From: Paraburkholderia fungorum
GTDB taxonomy: Bacteria; Pseudomonadota; Gammaproteobacteria; Burkholderiales; Burkholderiaceae
Reading direction: 5' to 3'
Assembly: GCF_900099835.1 (NCBI RefSeq)
Contig: NZ_FNKP01000001.1
Coordinates: 1,984,001-2,048,000 of the forward strand
Length of the DNA: 64,000 bases
Positions within the stretch are counted from its first letter, which is position 1, and every line of letters starts with the position of its first letter. Both the position numbers and the translations under genes were made by a program. The notes below the pieces were generated by a model. It did not search any database, was not told the origin of the DNA, and saw only the letters and a program-made list of their open reading frames with translations. This document shows positions 4,914 to 62,328 of this stretch, one piece after another.

Positions 4914-6185
4914 ATGGCGGACAAGAAAGGTTCTAACAGCGAAAAGCTGTTGTATTGCTCGTTTTGCGGCAAGAGCCAGCATGAGGTCAAAAAGCTGATT
5001 GCTGGCCCGTCGGTGTTCATTTGCGATGAATGTATCGACCTGTGCAACGAAATCATCCGTGACGAGGCGGCGGGTGCGGGCATCGAGGCGGGCTTGTCCA
5101 AGTCCGATCTGCCAAGCCCGCAGGAAATTCGTGAAATTCTCGACCAGTACGTGATCGGTCAGGAACGCGCGAAGAAGATTCTTGCAGTAGCGGTGTACAA
5201 CCACTACAAACGCCTCAAGCATCTCGACAAGAAGGATGAAATCGAGCTGTCAAAGAGCAACATTCTGCTGATCGGCCCGACCGGTTCCGGCAAGACTTTG
5301 CTCGCGCAGACGCTCGCACGCCTCCTGAACGTCCCGTTTGTGATTGCTGACGCAACCACGTTGACGGAAGCCGGCTATGTCGGCGAAGACGTCGAGAACA
5401 TCATTCAGAAGTTGCTGCAGAACTGCAACTACGAAGTGGACAAGGCCCAGCGCGGTATTGTCTACATCGATGAAATCGACAAGATCAGCCGCAAGTCCGA
5501 CAACCCGTCTATCACACGTGATGTGTCGGGTGAAGGCGTGCAGCAGGCTCTGCTGAAGCTCGTCGAAGGCACGATGGCGTCAGTGCCTCCGCAGGGCGGC
5601 CGCAAGCATCCGAATCAGGACTTCATCCAGGTCGACACCACCAATATTCTGTTCATCTGCGGTGGTGCGTTCGACGGTCTGGAGAAGGTCATCGTCGACC
5701 GCACCGAAAAGACGGGTATTGGTTTCGGCGCGAGCGTGAAGAGCAAGCAGGAGCGGGACGCGGGCGAGGTGCTTCGCGAAGTGGAGCCGGAAGATCTGAT
5801 CAAGTTCGGTTTGATTCCCGAACTGATCGGCCGTCTGCCGGTGGTCGCCACGCTCGGCAAGCTCGACGAAACTGCGTTGATGAAGATCCTCGTTGAACCG
5901 AAGAACGCATTGGTGAAGCAGTACCACAAGCTGTTCAACATGGAACGCGTCGAACTGGAGATTCGTCCGGCTGCGTTGCAGGCTGTGGCGCGTAAAGCGA
6001 TCCGTCGCAAGACGGGTGCGCGTGGTTTGCGCTCCATCCTGGAACAGGCGTTGCTTGAAGTGATGTACGACCTGCCGCAAATGAAAGGCGTCAGCAAGGT
6101 CATCATCGACGACAACGTTATCGACGGCGACGGCAAACCGCTACTGATCTACGAAGACGCGCCCAAGGTCGCGGGTTCGAACTGA
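4914..6185 (+). CDS. clpX: ClpX, ATPase/unfoldase subunit of Clp protease
   Basis: AAA+ hexameric unfoldase that recognises tagged substrates and threads them into ClpP. The 423 residues match the family. The N-terminal zinc-binding domain uses Cys15, Cys18, Cys37 and Cys40. The AAA+ core shows Walker A GPTGSGKT at 121-128, pore-loop GYVG at 154-157 and Walker B IVYIDEID at 182-189. The RKH loop (GGRKHPNQ) and the ClpP-docking IGF loop (TGIGFGAS) are both intact. The start [15 protein letters not shown] matches close relatives. It is followed by a strong terminator and then lon. Confidence 0.98.
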
Positions 6186-6203
6186 TCGGCTTTCGAGTTC
6201 TGC

Positions 6204-6243
6204 AAAAAAAGCCGTTCATGGCAACGTGAACGGCTTTTTTCGT
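6204..6243 (+). terminator. Rho-independent terminator of clpX
   Basis: A stem of AAAAAAAGCCGTTCA (6204-6218) pairs with TGAACGGCTTTTTT (6227-6240). The A- and T-tracts on both sides would allow termination from either direction. It lies 19 bp after the clpX stop. Confidence 0.9.
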
Positions 6244-6277
6244 TTATCGTGTGGTCAATGAAGCTTGTTTTCACAAT

Positions 6278-6307
6278 GGAGTCACTGAACCTTCGGAGTC
6301 ACTGAAC
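6278..6307. repeat. Direct repeat in the lon upstream region
   Basis: The 13-bp sequence GGAGTCACTGAAC occurs twice, at 6278-6290 and 6295-6307, with a 17-bp period, about 85-110 bp upstream of the lon start. It could be a regulator-binding site or a local duplication. No known factor is assigned. Confidence 0.6.
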
Positions 6308-56419: not shown

Positions 56420-56722
56420 ATGCACTACCTGTTGATGTATGAGCTTGTCTCCGACTACCTCGACCGTCGCGGCGAGTACCGCGATGAGCACCTGAGACTC
56501 GCATGGACAGCGTCCGAACGCGGCGAACTTTTGCTGGGCGGCGCGCTAGCCGATCCTGTCGACGGTGCCGTGCTGCTCTTTAAAGGCGATTCACCCGCAG
56601 CCGCCGAAGCCTTTGCCAGAGCCGATCCGTACGTGCGATCGGGACTCGTCGGAAGCTGGCGGGTGCGTGAATGGACGACCGTCGCCGGTGAGGGCGCTAC
56701 CAAACCTGTGCGTCCCGCATAG
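56420..56722 (+). CDS. YciI-family protein
   Basis: A 100-residue YCII-related protein with a ferredoxin-like fold. MHYLLMYELVSDYLDRRGEYRDEHLRLAWTA (in two parts) carries the conserved His-Asp region (the R-x2-H-L motif), followed by GELLLGGALADPVDGAVLLFKGDS and FARADPYVRSGLVGSWRVREW. Members are small enzymes or binding proteins of uncertain activity. The start at 56420 is set by AGGAGG 6 nt upstream. It stands alone. Confidence 0.9.
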   Translation: MHYLLMYELVSDYLDRRGEYRDEHLRLAWTASERGELLLGGALADPVDGAVLLFKGDSPAAAEAFARADPYVRSGLVGSWRVREWTTVAGEGATKPVRPA

Positions 56723-57298
56723 CGCGGATAGAGGCATCCACGTATCGATGGGAGGCGGGTGGGAGCACGTGTACCAACACCGAACGCGCGCTTCCCGTCG
56801 CGCAATTTCCCTCAGGCATGTTTGCTGCTGAATGCCCGTCAGACTGTGCTACGCCCAGCATCTTCGGCCGGAAACAATACTTCGAAATAGCATCCCGGCC
56901 ATGCTATAGATTCCTAAATCAATTCAGTGATGCTGCATACCGTTGTGCCGTGCAATAACGTATTCCGTTGCCCGATAACACAGTGCTTTTGTTACCGCAA
57001 TGCGTGAAGCGACGCAGCGAAAAGGACAAGATTGTTTCTATCCGTAACACTTGTCTCAACCGTATTCACGCAAACCCTGGTGGTGGTATGCTTCGTGCAC
57101 AAATTCTCCCATGCACGAGTGAGACCACGTTTTGTGCTTCGGAATAGGGACAAACCGCACTAACTCAGGGCGGTATTGACCAGCCAACAGAACGTACAAA
57201 ACATATTTGTGCAACCGCGGGCTGCACACGAATCGTGAAAGCTGAATTCGTGGCAAGTCCAAAGCCGCGGCCAGGCCAGGCTGCGTGGAGAAAACCCA
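56723..57298. other. 576-bp intergenic region upstream of the transposase-derived gene
   Basis: An unusually long and AT-richer upstream region (especially 56870-57200). A 7-bp inverted repeat TCGTGCA (57093-57099) / TGCACGA (57112-57118) with a 12-bp spacer is a candidate operator. I looked for IS5-type terminal inverted repeats flanking the downstream gene and saw none. No RNA gene recognised. Confidence 0.45.
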
Positions 57299-58525
57299 AT
57301 GTTTTTCGATGAGCTAAGCAATGACGAATGGGCGCTGCTGGCAGTGCTTGTCTCTGACGAGCCGGCCGTCCGTCTGAACCGACGCGGCCGGCCCCGCGCC
57401 GAACCGCGCATCGTCGCGAATGCCGTCCTGTGGATTCTGACAACCGGCGAACCCTGGTCGAAACTGCCAGGCCGCTATCCGTCCGGGCCAACGTGCCGGC
57501 GGCGGTTCGAAGAGTGGCAACTGAACGGCACTCTCCTCGAGATGGTTCGGCTGTTGTCGCAAACCGGGCGCACGTTCGCGTACATTCCGCCACCGGCACC
57601 GCCGGTTGCGGCCAAACCCGTGGCTCCGGTCACGGAAACGCCCAGCATGCGTGACGAAGGTCTGCGTGGTGTGTCGTGGAAAAGCCCTGAATCGTGGCAG
57701 GCGCCTCGTGTGTCGAACACGCTGGGCAACTGGCGCTCGGCCGATCCGATTGCCGATATCACGCGTCAATTGTCCGGTCTCTCGAACGAGGCGCCGGTGG
57801 CGCGCGCGCGTCCAATGCCTGCAACGCCGGCAGCGGTCGTTGCGCGCTCAGCGGCGCGCGTCGATCTGCCGGTCAGAACGGGAGAGGCGGGCGCGGTGGG
57901 CTCGGCAATGGCGCAACTCGATTTCGCTATTGCGTCGGCACGCCGTACGCCGAATGCGCCCAACGACGACCTTCGCAGTCCACTGTCGATGAGTCTCGCG
58001 CCGCGCGGCACGCAGGTGGCCGGCAGCAACGGCTATCTGATCTGTACCGTCGCCGAGCAGGTGCCTGGCGCGATGTATCGCGCGTCGGCGGAAATCGTGA
58101 AGGACGGCAAGCGTGTCGAACGCTCCGGCCTGATCGGCCCGCGCTTTGCCGAGGCGGCCGAAGCCGAGCAGTACGCGCTCGACTGGGCGCAGCAGTGGAT
58201 CGACCGGAAATGCGTCGCGCAGGGAGCGGCAGAGCCTGCTTTGGCGGCGTCGAATCAATCCGCCGAAACGCATGCCGAAACTCATCCGCGCGTGGCTCGT
58301 CCATTGCCCGCGCTGCGTCACGTGCCGGAACCCGTCACTGTGAATCACGGCGCGCCGCTGCACGGTCCGATCAATGCGTTTCGCGGACCACTGCGTCGTT
58401 ATCCGGGCGAACCGGTTGCCGCAACTGTCACGGCGTCGTCCGTTGCGGTGAACGCGGTGACCGACAGCACGGCATCGGATCGTTTTTCGTCGGCCTATAT
58501 AGAACTCGTCTCCCACGTGGGATGA
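57299..58525 (+). CDS. Transposase-derived protein: IS5-type DUF4096 N-terminal domain fused to a unique C-terminal region
   Basis: An intact 408-residue frame with a good start (GGAG 8 nt upstream). Residues 1 to about 88 match the N-terminal domain of IS5-family transposases: LSNDEWALLAVL, RRGRPRAEPRIVANAVLWIL, TTGEPWSKLPGRY and TCRRRFEEWQLNGTLLEMV. No DDE domain follows. Instead there is an Ala/Pro-rich linker (about 95-225), a small predicted alpha/beta unit at about 245-305 (GYLICTVAEQVPGAMYRASA, then a helix ending WAQQWIDRKC) and a low-complexity tail. It therefore cannot transpose. It probably kept DNA binding and was recruited as a host protein, possibly a regulator of the adjacent exopolysaccharide genes; that last step is inference. 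Confidence 0.8.
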   Translation: MFFDELSNDEWALLAVLVSDEPAVRLNRRGRPRAEPRIVANAVLWILTTGEPWSKLPGRYPSGPTCRRRFEEWQLNGTLLEMVRLLSQTGRTFAYIPPPAPPVAAKPVAPVTETPSMRDEGLRGVSWKSPESWQAPRVSNTLGNWRSADPIADITRQLSGLSNEAPVARARPMPATPAAVVARSAARVDLPVRTGEAGAVGSAMAQLDFAIASARRTPNAPNDDLRSPLSMSLAPRGTQVAGSNGYLICTVAEQVPGAMYRASAEIVKDGKRVERSGLIGPRFAEAAEAEQYALDWAQQWIDRKCVAQGAAEPALAASNQSAETHAETHPRVARPLPALRHVPEPVTVNHGAPLHGPINAFRGPLRRYPGEPVAATVTASSVAVNAVTDSTASDRFSSAYIELVSHVG

Positions 58526-58670
58526 GCATGTAGTACCCCGCGGCCGGTAGGAGCAACCGCCGCAGGTTCCCGCTTCATTCGTTGTGATCTACCGCTGTTG
58601 CCCTGAATGTCGTCCGCGCTGTTGCACGTGCCCGCTGCTGTTGCCGGTGCCTGAGCCTGCCTGACTTGAT

Positions 58671-58700
58671 GAGTCGTCGACGACACCCCGCCGACGACTC
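58671..58700. terminator. Hairpin between convergent genes
   Basis: GAGTCGTCG (58671-58679) pairs with CGACGACTC (58692-58700) over 9 bp with a 12-nt loop. There is no T-tract on either side. It lies 12 bp after the manC stop (minus) and 145 bp after the transposase-derived gene, so it is more likely the 3' end of manC. Confidence 0.5.
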
Positions 58701-58712
58701 CCAATGGCCTGG

Positions 58713-60275
58713 TTACTGGCGACCGTACGTGTCGTCGAAACGCACGATATCGTCTTCGCCGAGATACGAGCCGGACTGCACCTCGATCATTTCGAGCGGC
58801 ATCTTGCCCGGATTTTCGAGGCGGTGGGTGACACCCAGCGGAATATAAGCCGACTCGTTTTCGGAGACGATAAAGCGCTCTTCACCTCGCGTGACGAGCG
58901 CTGTGCCGCGCACGACGATCCAGTGTTCCGCCCGGTGATGATGCATTTGCAGCGACAGGCGCGCGCCCGGCTTCACCACAATGCGCTTGACCTGGAAACG
59001 CTCGCCGGTATCGACGGAATCGTAATTGCCCCACGGACGATGCACCTTGCGATGGTTGGCCGCTTCGGCGCTGCCATCTTCGCGAAGGCGTCCGACAATC
59101 TTCTTGACGTCCTGCACGCGCGATTTGTCGGCAACCAGAATCGCGTCCGGCGTTTCGACGATGACGAGATCCTGCGTGCCCACGCAGGCAATCAGGCGTC
59201 CTTCCGAGTGGGCGAAGGTCGATGCCGCGCCTTCGAACATCACGCGGCCGCGCGCCACATTCTGATCCGCGTCTTTCTCGGAGATGTCCCAGATCGCGTC
59301 CCACGAACCCACGTCGGACCAGCCGGCTTTCAGCGGCACGACCACGCCCGATGCCGCGCTTTGATCGCCGCCGAGTTTTTCCATCACCGCATAGTCGATC
59401 GAATTCGACGGCGATGCGCTGAACGCGTCACGCTGCAGGCGGAAGAAGTCGCCGTCCGATTTACCGCCCGCGAAAGCTGCTTCGCAGGCTTCGAAAATGG
59501 CGGGCTGGAAGTGACGAATCGCCTTCAACCACGTCGACGCACGCATGATGAAAATGCCGCTGTTCCACCAGTATTCCTGCGATTCGATGTAGCGCTGCGC
59601 CAGTTCGAGATGCGGCTTCTCGACAAAGCGGTCGAGTTGGCGAGCAACAATCGACGCAGATGATTCGCCATCCGAATCAACGGCCGCGTTACCGCCTTCA
59701 GTTGTGCCAAGCGCCGCGCCGATGCGAATGTAGCCATAGCCGGTTTCCGCGCGGGTCGGCACGATACCCATCGTGACGATATGACCGGCTGCCGCGTGCC
59801 TGACGCCTGCAGCAACGGCGGCCTGAAATCCCTTGCCGTCGGTGACCGCGTGATCGGCGGGCATCACGACCATGATGCCGTCCTCGTCCTGCGCGGCGAT
59901 CGACAACGCGGCCACCGTCAGCGCCGGAGCCGTATCGCGGCCGGCCGGCTCGAGAATCAGACGCGTCGGCTTGCCGCTCGTGCGCAATTGCTCGGCGGTA
60001 GTGAAGCGCTGTTCTTCATTCGCGACCACGACGAGTTGTCCACTTAGCGGATAACCCGCTTCGAGTCCATCGAGTCGGCGCGTGGTGGATTGCAGCAGCG
60101 AATCGTCGCCGAGCAGTCCGATCAACTGCTTCGGATGCTGCTCACGCGACATCGGCCACAACCGCGTGCCGGAACCGCCCGCAAGAATCACGGGATGAAC
60201 CTTGAGCTTGACGTTCAGGGGCGTAGCTTGGGTGGACCGGGTGTCGGCAGACTTGGCCGTGACCGGAGCTGTCAT
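58713..60275 (-). CDS. Mannose-1-phosphate guanylyltransferase / mannose-6-phosphate isomerase
   Basis: A 520-residue bifunctional type II PMI/GMP enzyme. It converts fructose-6-phosphate to mannose-6-phosphate and mannose-1-phosphate to GDP-mannose. The pyrophosphorylase signature GGSGTRLWP is at 33-41. FVEKPHLELAQRYI and the C-terminal cupin motif with three His then RAEHW near 444-451 (isomerase metal site) are visible. It is a likely bceA (manC) homologue: the next genes match bceB, bceC and bceD of the cepacian cluster. GDP-mannose also feeds rhamnose and fucose routes. A ribosome-binding site (GAGGAG) precedes the start. Confidence 0.95.
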   Translation of the reverse strand: MTAPVTAKSADTRSTQATPLNVKLKVHPVILAGGSGTRLWPMSREQHPKQLIGLLGDDSLLQSTTRRLDGLEAGYPLSGQLVVVANEEQRFTTAEQLRTSGKPTRLILEPAGRDTAPALTVAALSIAAQDEDGIMVVMPADHAVTDGKGFQAAVAAGVRHAAAGHIVTMGIVPTRAETGYGYIRIGAALGTTEGGNAAVDSDGESSASIVARQLDRFVEKPHLELAQRYIESQEYWWNSGIFIMRASTWLKAIRHFQPAIFEACEAAFAGGKSDGDFFRLQRDAFSASPSNSIDYAVMEKLGGDQSAASGVVVPLKAGWSDVGSWDAIWDISEKDADQNVARGRVMFEGAASTFAHSEGRLIACVGTQDLVIVETPDAILVADKSRVQDVKKIVGRLREDGSAEAANHRKVHRPWGNYDSVDTGERFQVKRIVVKPGARLSLQMHHHRAEHWIVVRGTALVTRGEERFIVSENESAYIPLGVTHRLENPGKMPLEMIEVQSGSYLGEDDIVRFDDTYGRQ

Positions 60276-60930
60276 GATGAACTCCTCGAGGCTGGGTGAA
60301 TGCGTCGAGATTTAACACGACTTCTTCAATCAATAAAAGCGCGTTAAATGAAAACTATATAAAACGAATAATAAAATTCACCCGTCGATGAAGGAAAAAT
60401 GTCCGGTTAATTTATAAAAAAGAAAAATTACCCGAAAAAATTCGGAAGAGATTTTTTTACATCATTTTCTGCGTCAGAATAACGCCACAGGGTGTTGCGT
60501 AAGTTTCGTAGGGAAGCTGGCAGTCTTGCCCGCAGATGCTTACAGGACGGCCTGAAAATGCATACGAGAGCGACAAAAGCGGTAACAATTGCCGTACAAA
60601 ACTCGGAAAAAATGCCGAAATATTGACCGATACAATTTGAGATATTTTGCGGTCTTGCAGCGCGAATTTTAATATCGCTTTATCTATACCTGTACAAGGG
60701 TATTCACTCATTCCGACACATCTTTTCTGATCCGGGCATTCCGCTAATTCGGCGGCCGATTCCGGATCGGGAAATGGAAGGGCAATCGCACCGGTTCAAT
60801 CAGTTTCGCGTGGCGTATTGATTTACGCGACGCGGATACCGGCGTTGCGCGCCCATCCGGCGGACTGACGTGCAACGTAATTTCAACCTGGCAACGGACG
60901 ACACTTGACTGACGAACTGAGGGGCCGCGC
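60276..60930. promoter_or_regulatory. 655-bp AT-rich divergent control region between manC and bceB-like genes
   Basis: The stretch 60330-60720 is much more AT-rich than the rest of the window, with long A and T runs and a CCGAA-AAAA-TTCGG palindrome at 60432-60445. It separates manC (minus) from the undecaprenyl-phosphate transferase gene (plus). Such low-GC intergenic DNA often binds nucleoid silencers and regulators. An 84-residue minus frame at 60457-60711 is not convincing as a gene. No JUMPstart/ops element was found. Confidence 0.55.
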
Positions 60931-62328
60931 ATGCTGAGCGTTCTATCGAGAATCATCGACATCGCCATGGTCGCGCTTGGCGCCGCCATCGCGGCGGCCG
61001 TGCACAGCGGGAAAGTGGTGTGGCTGGACGACATGCAAAGCGTGTCGCTCGCGTTCGGCTGCCTGCTGATGGTGGTTTTTTTCCCGGCGCTGGGCATCTA
61101 TCAATCGTGGCGCGGCAAGCCGCTCTACGACCTGCTGTCGCGCGTCACGGGCGGCTGGCTGATGGTGGAGATCACGGGTGTGCTGATCAGCTTCAGCCTG
61201 CACCGCTCGGACGGTCTGTCGCGTCTATGGCTCGTGTACTGGGCGCTCGCCACGGTGGTGCTGCTGATCATCACCAAGGTCATCGTCTATTCGATTCTGC
61301 GCGGGCTGCGGCGCGAAGGCTTCAACCAGCGCGCGGTGGCGATCGTCGGTGGCGCGCCGTATGGACGCTTTCTGATCGAGCAGATGCGCAGCCGCCCGGA
61401 AGCAGGGTTTAGTCCGGTTGTCGTGTTCGACGAGGACGGCACCATCAATCCGTACGAAGACCCGGATGCGGCCAACGCAATCGACGGCGTACCCGTCGAG
61501 CGCGACTATCAACGGATGATTCAACTCGTGCGTCAGCGTTCGATCCGCGAATTGTGGCTGGCGCTGCCGATTTCGAAAGAGAAGGCGATCCATCGCTTCG
61601 TGATGGATCTGCGCAACGACTTCGTGAATATCCGTTTCATACCGGACGTGCGCAGCCTCACGCTGTTCAATCAGCCGATGGTCGAATTGCTCGGCGTACC
61701 CGCGATCAACCTCGCCGCGTCGCCGATCACCGATCTGCGCGTGCTGCCCAAGCGTGTATTCGACCGGCTGTTCGCGCTTGCTGCGTTGACCGCGCTGTCG
61801 CCGCTGATGATCGTGATCGCCGTGATGGTGAAAGTCAGCTCGCCTGGGCCGGTGTTTTTCCGGCAGAAACGCAAGGGCATCGACGGCAATCAGTTCGAGA
61901 TCTACAAATTCCGCTCGATGAAGATGCACAAGGAAGAGGCCGGCAAGATCACTCAGGCCACGCGCCGCGACCCGCGCATCACGGCGGTCGGCGCGTTCCT
62001 GCGGCGCACGAGCCTCGACGAATTGCCGCAATTCATCAACGTGCTGCGCGGCGAGATGTCGGTGGTCGGCCCGCGTCCGCATGCGCTCGAACACGACGAC
62101 ATCTACAAGGATCTGGTGAAGGGCTACATGCACCGCTACCGGATCAAACCAGGCATCACCGGCTGGGCGCAGATCAACGGCTATCGCGGCGAAACCGACC
62201 GCATCGAAAAGATGATGGGGCGCGTCAAGCTCGATCTGTACTACATGCAGCACTGGACCTTCTGGCTCGACATCAAGATCGTCGTGCTGACGCTGTGGAA
62301 GGGCTTCGCGGGCAGCAACGCGTATTGA
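60931..62328 (+). CDS. Undecaprenyl-phosphate glucose phosphotransferase (exopolysaccharide initiation)
   Basis: A 465-residue polyprenol-phosphate hexose-1-phosphate transferase of the WcaJ class. It starts polysaccharide repeat-unit assembly by moving glucose-1-phosphate from UDP-glucose to undecaprenyl phosphate. About four N-terminal membrane helices (for example [13 protein letters not shown] and [17 protein letters not shown]) are followed by a soluble nucleotide-fold domain. The catalytic bacterial sugar transferase domain starts near 276 ([18 protein letters not shown]), with [42 protein letters not shown] and [14 protein letters not shown]. It is a likely bceB homologue. A GAGGGG ribosome-binding site precedes the ATG. 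Confidence 0.95.

Follow-up and report, generated by a model that had tools for sequence, protein, structure and literature searches.

Why does an intact gene with the amino-terminal domain of a transposase stand beside the exopolysaccharide genes of Paraburkholderia fungorum? The gene lies in a 64,000-nucleotide (nt) stretch of that genome (the window; contig NZ_FNKP01000001.1, positions 1,984,001 to 2,048,000; source genome, 8.58 Mb), next to manC (bceA) and bceB of the cepacian (bce-I) locus. A preliminary description, made from the sequence of the window alone, had proposed that it encodes an IS5-type transposase domain recruited by the host, perhaps as a regulator of manC and bceB. Based on the computational analysis reported here, we consider it rather probable that the product, in which a DUF4096 domain is fused to a DUF6566 domain, is an exapted IS5-type DNA-binding protein that is dedicated to the bce locus and probably relays NtrC/sigma54 control to cepacian. 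In what follows, numbers beginning with L denote loci that we fetched, and those beginning with G the genomes of the genus that we searched. The coordinates of all features are given in Table 1.

A transposase-type domain joined to DUF6566

As the preliminary description had it, the frame is intact over 408 codons. Residues 6–81 match Pfam DUF4096 (E 1.9e-18; 66.9 bits, cut-off 34.3), described in Pfam as a putative transposase of the IS4/5 family, and the NCBIfam IS5 transposase model covers residues 5–88 only, with 64 bits, which is under its cut-off of 110. The preliminary description had placed the domain at residues 1–88. No DDE domain was found in the protein by Pfam and NCBIfam scans, and its place is indeed taken, as had been surmised, by a linker and a globular unit. 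However, the latter is not the unique region it was thought to be. Residues 244–307 resemble DUF6566 (PF20204), weakly in the window copy (E 4e-4; 20.9 bits, below the cut-off of 26.7); the PF20204 label is present on many orthologues of the fused protein, and DUF6566 also occurs alone at two other places in the source genome.

The AlphaFold model has four confident helices within residues 1–95, with a predicted local distance difference test score (pLDDT) of 85–96 per ten residues, falling to 53 in a loop at residues 21–30. The DUF6566 region is modeled as five strands (residues 238–283) and a helix (286–320), with a pLDDT of 90–96 per ten residues over 241–310, whilst the linker in the middle and the tail are disordered. 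The short motif LRGxxWxxPESWxAP is also conserved: in an alignment of 46 rows, V125, W127, P130, and W133 are invariant and R123, G124, E131, and S132 nearly so, and similar motifs are found in L042 and in L225–L228, L230, and L231. The closest named record that we found, from Paraburkholderia metrosideri, is completely identical over residues 1–88.

Table 1. Features of the fused gene and its surroundings (positions in the window)
Feature	Position	Strand	Details
Palindrome TGTTTC-N5-GTAACA	57033..57049	+	Candidate enhancer site for a sigma54 activator
Sigma54-like -24/-12 box TGGTATG-CTTC-GTGCA	57084..57099	+	TGGYAY-N6-TGC in 91/100 loci
UUCUCC, complementary to ribosome-binding site	57104..57109	+	Four pairs counted, 96.1% of cells paired, no double-sided change
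Dyad of GCAC-N7-GTGC type	57157..57171		Imperfect (GGGC) in window copy; perfect form in 45/100 loci vs 0.3 expected
Leader hairpin H3	57227..57252 (57227-57233 with 57246-57252)	+	Double-sided changes at 7/7 pairs; 86.6% of cells paired
Leader hairpin H4, directly before ribosome-binding site	57266..57285 (57266-57272 with 57279-57285)	+	Double-sided changes at 3/6 inner pairs; 98.0% of cells paired
Ribosome-binding site GGAG	57287..57290	+	57/57 distinct orthologue genes
Fused DUF4096-DUF6566 gene	57299..58525	+	408 amino acids; ATG at 57299; uninterrupted frame; stop ends at 58525
DUF4096 domain, residues 1-92	57299..57574	+	Four helices, presumed DNA-binding; Pfam E 1.9e-18; AlphaFold; dN/dS 0-0.07
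Motif LRGxxWxxPESWxAP, residues 122-136	57662..57706	+	Common to solo paralogue; 46-row alignment
DUF6566 domain, residues 244-307	58028..58219	+	Pfam E 4e-4; AlphaFold
manC (bceA), conserved neighbor	58713..60275	-	38/38 loci of one set; 91/100 of another
bceB, conserved neighbor	60931..62328	+	135/137 genomes; 90/100 loci of second set

Selection, descent, and loss of transposase features

Purifying selection on the DUF4096 part is extreme. The ratio of nonsynonymous to synonymous substitution rates (dN/dS), calculated by the Nei–Gojobori method against ten orthologues, is 0–0.07 for residues 1–92, 0.13–0.26 for residues 93–165, 0.18–0.75 for the linker, 0.19–0.38 for DUF6566, and 0.15–0.52 for the tail. 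In most of the comparisons, synonymous divergence is also lower in 57299–57574 than in the rest of the gene, and this hints at an extra constraint on the DUF4096 coding stretch at the level of the nucleic acid.

In a tree of 44 DUF4096 domains (39 of them different), all 21 rows from fused proteins formed one clade (support 98/96), which was joined at 99/92 to 13 rows of a solo DUF4096 protein of 133 amino acids; the row from an insertion sequence and the other DUF4096 rows fell outside this group on long branches, in a tree rooted at its midpoint only. Given this tree, and the strong conservation of the solo protein, the fused gene appears to be related to a protein that had already been exapted, and to have acquired DUF6566 on a single occasion. 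We would expect an exapted protein to show long purifying selection and vertical inheritance, and both are seen here, in the dN/dS values, the single clade, and the synteny described below. We regard the exaptation of an IS5-type transposase domain as near certain.

The source genome contains seven matches to DUF4096 and three to DDE_Tnp_1 (PF01609), none of them together. None of the three DDE_Tnp_1 matches lies near the gene, other DDE families not having been searched genome-wide. The control, L232, which is a genuine IS5 transposase of a different genus, carries both DUF4096 and DDE_Tnp_1 (72.6 bits), and its score with the IS5 model is 253 bits. No inverted repeats of at least 14 nt bracket the gene in 56720–58720, in keeping with the earlier remark that flanking terminal repeats are lacking; target duplications were not searched separately. 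The preliminary description had named a gene confined to this strain, a frameshifted DDE domain downstream, or terminal repeats with a target duplication as findings that would speak against exaptation, and none of these was made.

It has been proposed in print for Bphy_1055 that such a gene is a transposase acting in the acquisition or transfer of the bce cluster. The presence of DUF4096 agrees with that proposal, but it is already contradicted by the lack of a DDE domain and of flanking terminal repeats, by the fixed position, and by purifying selection, and we consider it extremely improbable. On the same four grounds, the reading of the gene as a mobile element was rejected.

The gene is inherited, and lost, with the cepacian genes

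The fused gene was found in 137 of 144 genomes of the genus (matches at E 4e-58 or better) and is thus not a peculiarity of one strain; all 144 genomes give some match, since the solo paralogue matches too. None of the 137 copies has an internal stop: that of G109, flagged with a TGA, is intact, the match having run beyond the gene's own end. A bceB orthologue (at least 68% identity; the next class of matches listed drops to 56%) is likewise present in 137 genomes, and the two sets of genomes are identical, with the same seven lacking both bceB and an intact copy of the fused gene. In 135 of the 137 genomes, bceB lies 3154–4259 bp downstream of the fused gene and shares its contig and strand; in the remaining two, the pair is split between contigs. 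The best scores in six of the seven remaining genomes are only E 4e-38 to 5e-40, which is about the level of the solo paralogue (7e-43 for L225). In the seventh, G129, two frame changes interrupt the copy and manC is split over two frames; the leader is still recognizable, and bceB was not found in the 18 kb fetched. In this genome, the fused gene has decayed together with the cepacian pathway.

The locus is also syntenic across genera (Table 1). The set of 100 loci (L121–L220) takes in named Paraburkholderia, Caballeronia, and Burkholderia records, and its neighbor counts include duplicates and contig ends. Some of its genomes are repeated (e.g., L129/L209, L130/L210, and L137/L214), so that there are 97 distinct upstream sequences, and they overlap the genomes of L048–L085.

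Could the link to cepacian be plain chromosomal neighborhood, the fused gene encoding a host protein with some unrelated task? Two genes upstream, psiF and yciI, are conserved as well, in 33/38 and 33/38 Paraburkholderia loci, and L125 and L136 have the gene with neither manC nor bceB nearby. However, neither psiF nor yciI turned up in the Burkholderia and Caballeronia rows, where manC and bceB mostly persist, and the lasting linkage is therefore that to manC and bceB; moreover, the fused gene and bceB are missing from the very same genomes. We judge mere neighborhood to be quite improbable, and the dedication of the fused gene to the bce locus to be very likely. Synteny, co-loss, and co-decay all give strong support to the connection with manC and bceB that the preliminary description had suspected.

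A UDP-glucose dehydrogenase gene (bceC type; L136:10229–11653, + strand) lies 1.6 kb downstream of the L136 copy. Some Caballeronia carry an extra copy of the fused gene elsewhere (L129/L209, L130/L210, and L211). In L216 (Burkholderia sp. TSV86) and L218 (B. singularis), manC gives a weaker match, which begins much nearer the gene, and the sigma54-like box described below lacks its GG.

Candidate promoter elements upstream of the fused gene

In the 57 distinct orthologue genes that were compared, conservation is strong over the upstream DNA between about –280 and the start codon. Its candidate -24/-12 box stands out, as the pattern TGGYAY-N6-TGC would be expected in only 0.35 of the 100 loci (expectations for the box, palindrome, and dyad are from single-base shuffles). 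GG-N10-GC is conserved in a TGGCAC-like context. A second element, the palindrome TGTTnC-N5-GnAACA, occurs upstream in 79 of the 100 loci against none in the shuffles, precedes the box by 50–52 nt wherever both are present (78 loci), and is limited to Paraburkholderia and some relatives. By analogy, it is a candidate enhancer site for a sigma54 activator, and the dyad is NtrC-like by its consensus.

The box is likely, judging from its sequence, to be a sigma54-dependent promoter. The assignment can be called no more than likely because an extended –10 element of sigma70 would fit the invariant positions as well: TGnTATnnT is invariant in the 51 rows of alignment A1, which consists of the window and 50 of the 100 loci. 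We have kept this alternative. Against it, a scan of 56720–58720 for sigma70 promoters gave none on the + strand, and the box of the solo paralogue, TGGCACG-CTTC-GTGCA, from which that of the window differs at two positions, is close to the sigma54 consensus quoted in the available part of PMC5491218.

The situation is different between manC and bceB, where none of 126 loci has a strict sigma54 box. The stretch 60580–60712 is strongly conserved in 38 aligned loci and only partly recognizable in other genera. We consider this block to be the probable bce promoter region. The promoter of the fused gene and the manC–bceB DNA have four 6-mers common to >60% of loci. Sites for TTTGTGCA number three in the window, with 1.84 expected, and are thus not above chance.

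A structured leader

The leader, of ~200 nt, contains two covarying hairpins, H3 and H4, in the 51 aligned leaders of A1. Jointly, 92.2% of cells are paired, compared with 28–46% in slid versions, a comparison that favors the structure in so far as it was derived from the same sequences; double-sided changes were counted in 65 cells, against a shuffle mean of 24.2. Near-duplicates, the divergent Caballeronia leaders (L126–L128, L137, L138, and others), and L129, L130, L135, L140, and L209–L211 are omitted from A1, and the pair counts consequently lean toward alignable leaders. The ribosome-binding site, already rated as good in the preliminary description, was compared in 67 loci, corresponding to the 57 distinct genes. 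Its complement UUCUCC may pair with it to form a pseudoknot.

Two further pairings were rejected as RNA structures. For H1, formed by 5′ GTGCA arms, just one cell shows a double-sided change, and in H2, the CGCAC/GTGCG element, three of the seven pairs are open in 16 to 26 of the 51 rows; the latter may rather be a DNA dyad. Rfam gave no match in 56700–61000 at E 1, nor in L133 or L121 at the gathering score, and a covariance model built on the leader's 3′ half found a single copy in the source genome (E 6e-20; next match, E 3.6). A similar box and leader precede the copies in L125 and L136. The leaders of L129, L130, and L211 are diverged and without a strict box, and L140 has neither box nor leader.

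Such a leader could point to a protein concerned mainly with its own control, with DUF6566 or DUF4096 binding the structured RNA and any effect on cepacian being secondary or post-transcriptional. We think this unlikely.

Solo paralogue and other DUF4096 proteins

The solo protein is represented by L042 and L241–L270, and the copy in the source genome lies at C1:1724931–1725329. A match at E 1e-30 or better was found in 61 of 120 genomes of the family, with fused copies among the rows, and 30 loci fetched from several genera encode proteins that are 92–100% identical. A sigma54-like box is present at –160 to –181 in 23 of these 30 loci, and in eight it has exactly the paralogue form given above.

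Elsewhere in the source genome, a solo DUF4096 gene (L046:4942–5229, – strand) and a solo DUF6566 gene (5963–6307, – strand) lie <1 kb apart, with a SnoaL-like gene on the opposite strand between them; the pair echoes the two domains of the fused protein. In related genera, the genes L235:835–1752, L237:1015–1794, and L239:1360–2160 (all – strand) encode DUF4096 followed by long, histone-H1-like basic tails rich in Lys, Ala, and Pro. These are possibly another exapted DNA-binding family.

Might the fused protein then be a local architectural or silencing protein, whose DUF4096 would coat or bend the bce locus with no specific nitrogen relay? Its disordered linker and tail would suit such a role, as would the resemblance of the family's other DUF4096 proteins to DNA-binding units with basic tails. 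However, there is one strictly syntenic copy, absent together with bceB, its promoter-like box is conserved, and regulated expression has been reported in print, all of which suggest a specific role. We regard an architectural function as an unlikely explanation.

Discussion

We favor a scheme in which an IS5-type transposase would have lost its catalytic domain long ago, the amino-terminal domain that was left being fused once to DUF6566 and becoming an established part of the bce-I locus. The fused gene would be driven by a sigma54-type promoter, translation would proceed via the structured leader, and the protein would bind DNA by DUF4096 and relay both quorum signals and those of nitrogen, by way of NtrC/sigma54, to the bce operons. 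On the strength of sequence comparison, a regulatory role is likely; DNA binding through DUF4096, the target sites, and the direction of regulation are what we infer from it.

Published expression studies fit into this picture. According to the available part of PMC5491218, I35_4766, an orthologue of BCAM0853 annotated as “Transposase and inactivated derivatives,” is sigma54-NtrC-dependent, belongs to bce-I, and has a fold change of –4.1 in an ntrC mutant; bce expression depends on sigma54 and NtrC, and exopolysaccharide is reduced in the ntrC and sigma54 mutants. In the part of PMC3502180 available, BCAM0853 of Burkholderia cenocepacia depends on the Burkholderia diffusible signal factor (BDSF), and its protein was detected (Table 1 of that paper: wild type/rpfF, 3.1 for RNA and 10.0 for protein; against the complemented strain, 0.8 and 0.7). 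We took BCAM0853 as an orthologue from its place and label, not from its sequence.

Because the bce region has no strict sigma54 box, yet bce expression is reported to be sigma54- and NtrC-dependent, a relay is the simplest step that joins the two. Spelled out in full, nitrogen and quorum signals would reach the fused gene through the only strict sigma54-like box at the front of bce-I and pass from its product to the bce operons, the leader serving translational feedback. This detailed version is tentative, and we would put it well short of an even chance. We are equally reserved about its extension, that the protein is one of a family of exapted DUF4096 regulators across the Burkholderiaceae that go by the name of “transposase.”

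Several observations weigh against the scheme. Neither the DUF4096 nor the DUF6566 unit had a clear relative in fold searches. Between the gene's promoter and the manC–bceB region, no 7- or 8-mer is common to >60% of loci, so the binding in 60276–60930 that had been suggested found no support; a looser sigma54 pattern does occur there in 9 (forward) and 10 (reverse) of the 126 regions. The palindrome is missing from 21 of the 100 loci, namely the Caballeronia rows, L139, L216, L218, and the copies away from manC. Nine of the 100 are without the box: L129, L130, L140, and L209–L211 lie away from manC, and L213, L216, and L218 have lost GG or GC. To these must be added the fit of the box to an extended –10 and the two copies, L125 and L136, that have neither manC nor bceB at hand.

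If the scheme is true, the “transposase” of published transcriptomes and of a genome paper would belong permanently to the control of cepacian in Paraburkholderia, Burkholderia, and Caballeronia, and the route by which NtrC and sigma54 act on bce genes that have no strict sigma54 box of their own would be explained. The sigma54-like box and the covarying leader are new here, and both also precede some copies away from manC. BCAM0853/I35_4766 and Bphy_1055, the “transposase” next to bceA, occupy the same place at the bce-I locus as the fused gene, and the cluster start printed for P. phymatum (1183179) is the start of our match in G069. In the available parts of these sources, they appear only as a label, with expression values, or in a guess at gene transfer. 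We found no description of the fused protein as a domesticated DNA-binding protein, most subscription journals being outside the search, and a term search of the accessible part of a review on recruited mobile elements (PMC8987985) gave no mention of IS5 or DDE.

Among known proteins, the solo 133-residue ones (L042 type) have DUF4096, a similar tail motif, and a near-identical sigma54-like box in common with the fused gene, but they are without DUF6566 or a long tail, lie at a different locus, and have the TGTTnC-N5-GnAACA palindrome in none of 30 loci. IS5-family transposases (the NF033580 group, including the control L232) have the same DUF4096 amino-terminal domain; unlike them, the fused protein has no DDE domain, no terminal repeats were found, its syntenic place is fixed, and it is joined to DUF6566. 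TldR proteins are likewise transposon proteins turned regulators after loss of catalysis. They derive from TnpB, are RNA-guided, and have an unrelated fold, whereas a plain DNA-binding domain is proposed for the fused protein. If this proposal is correct, a route that keeps the DNA-binding domain only would join the known kinds of bacterial transposase exaptation.
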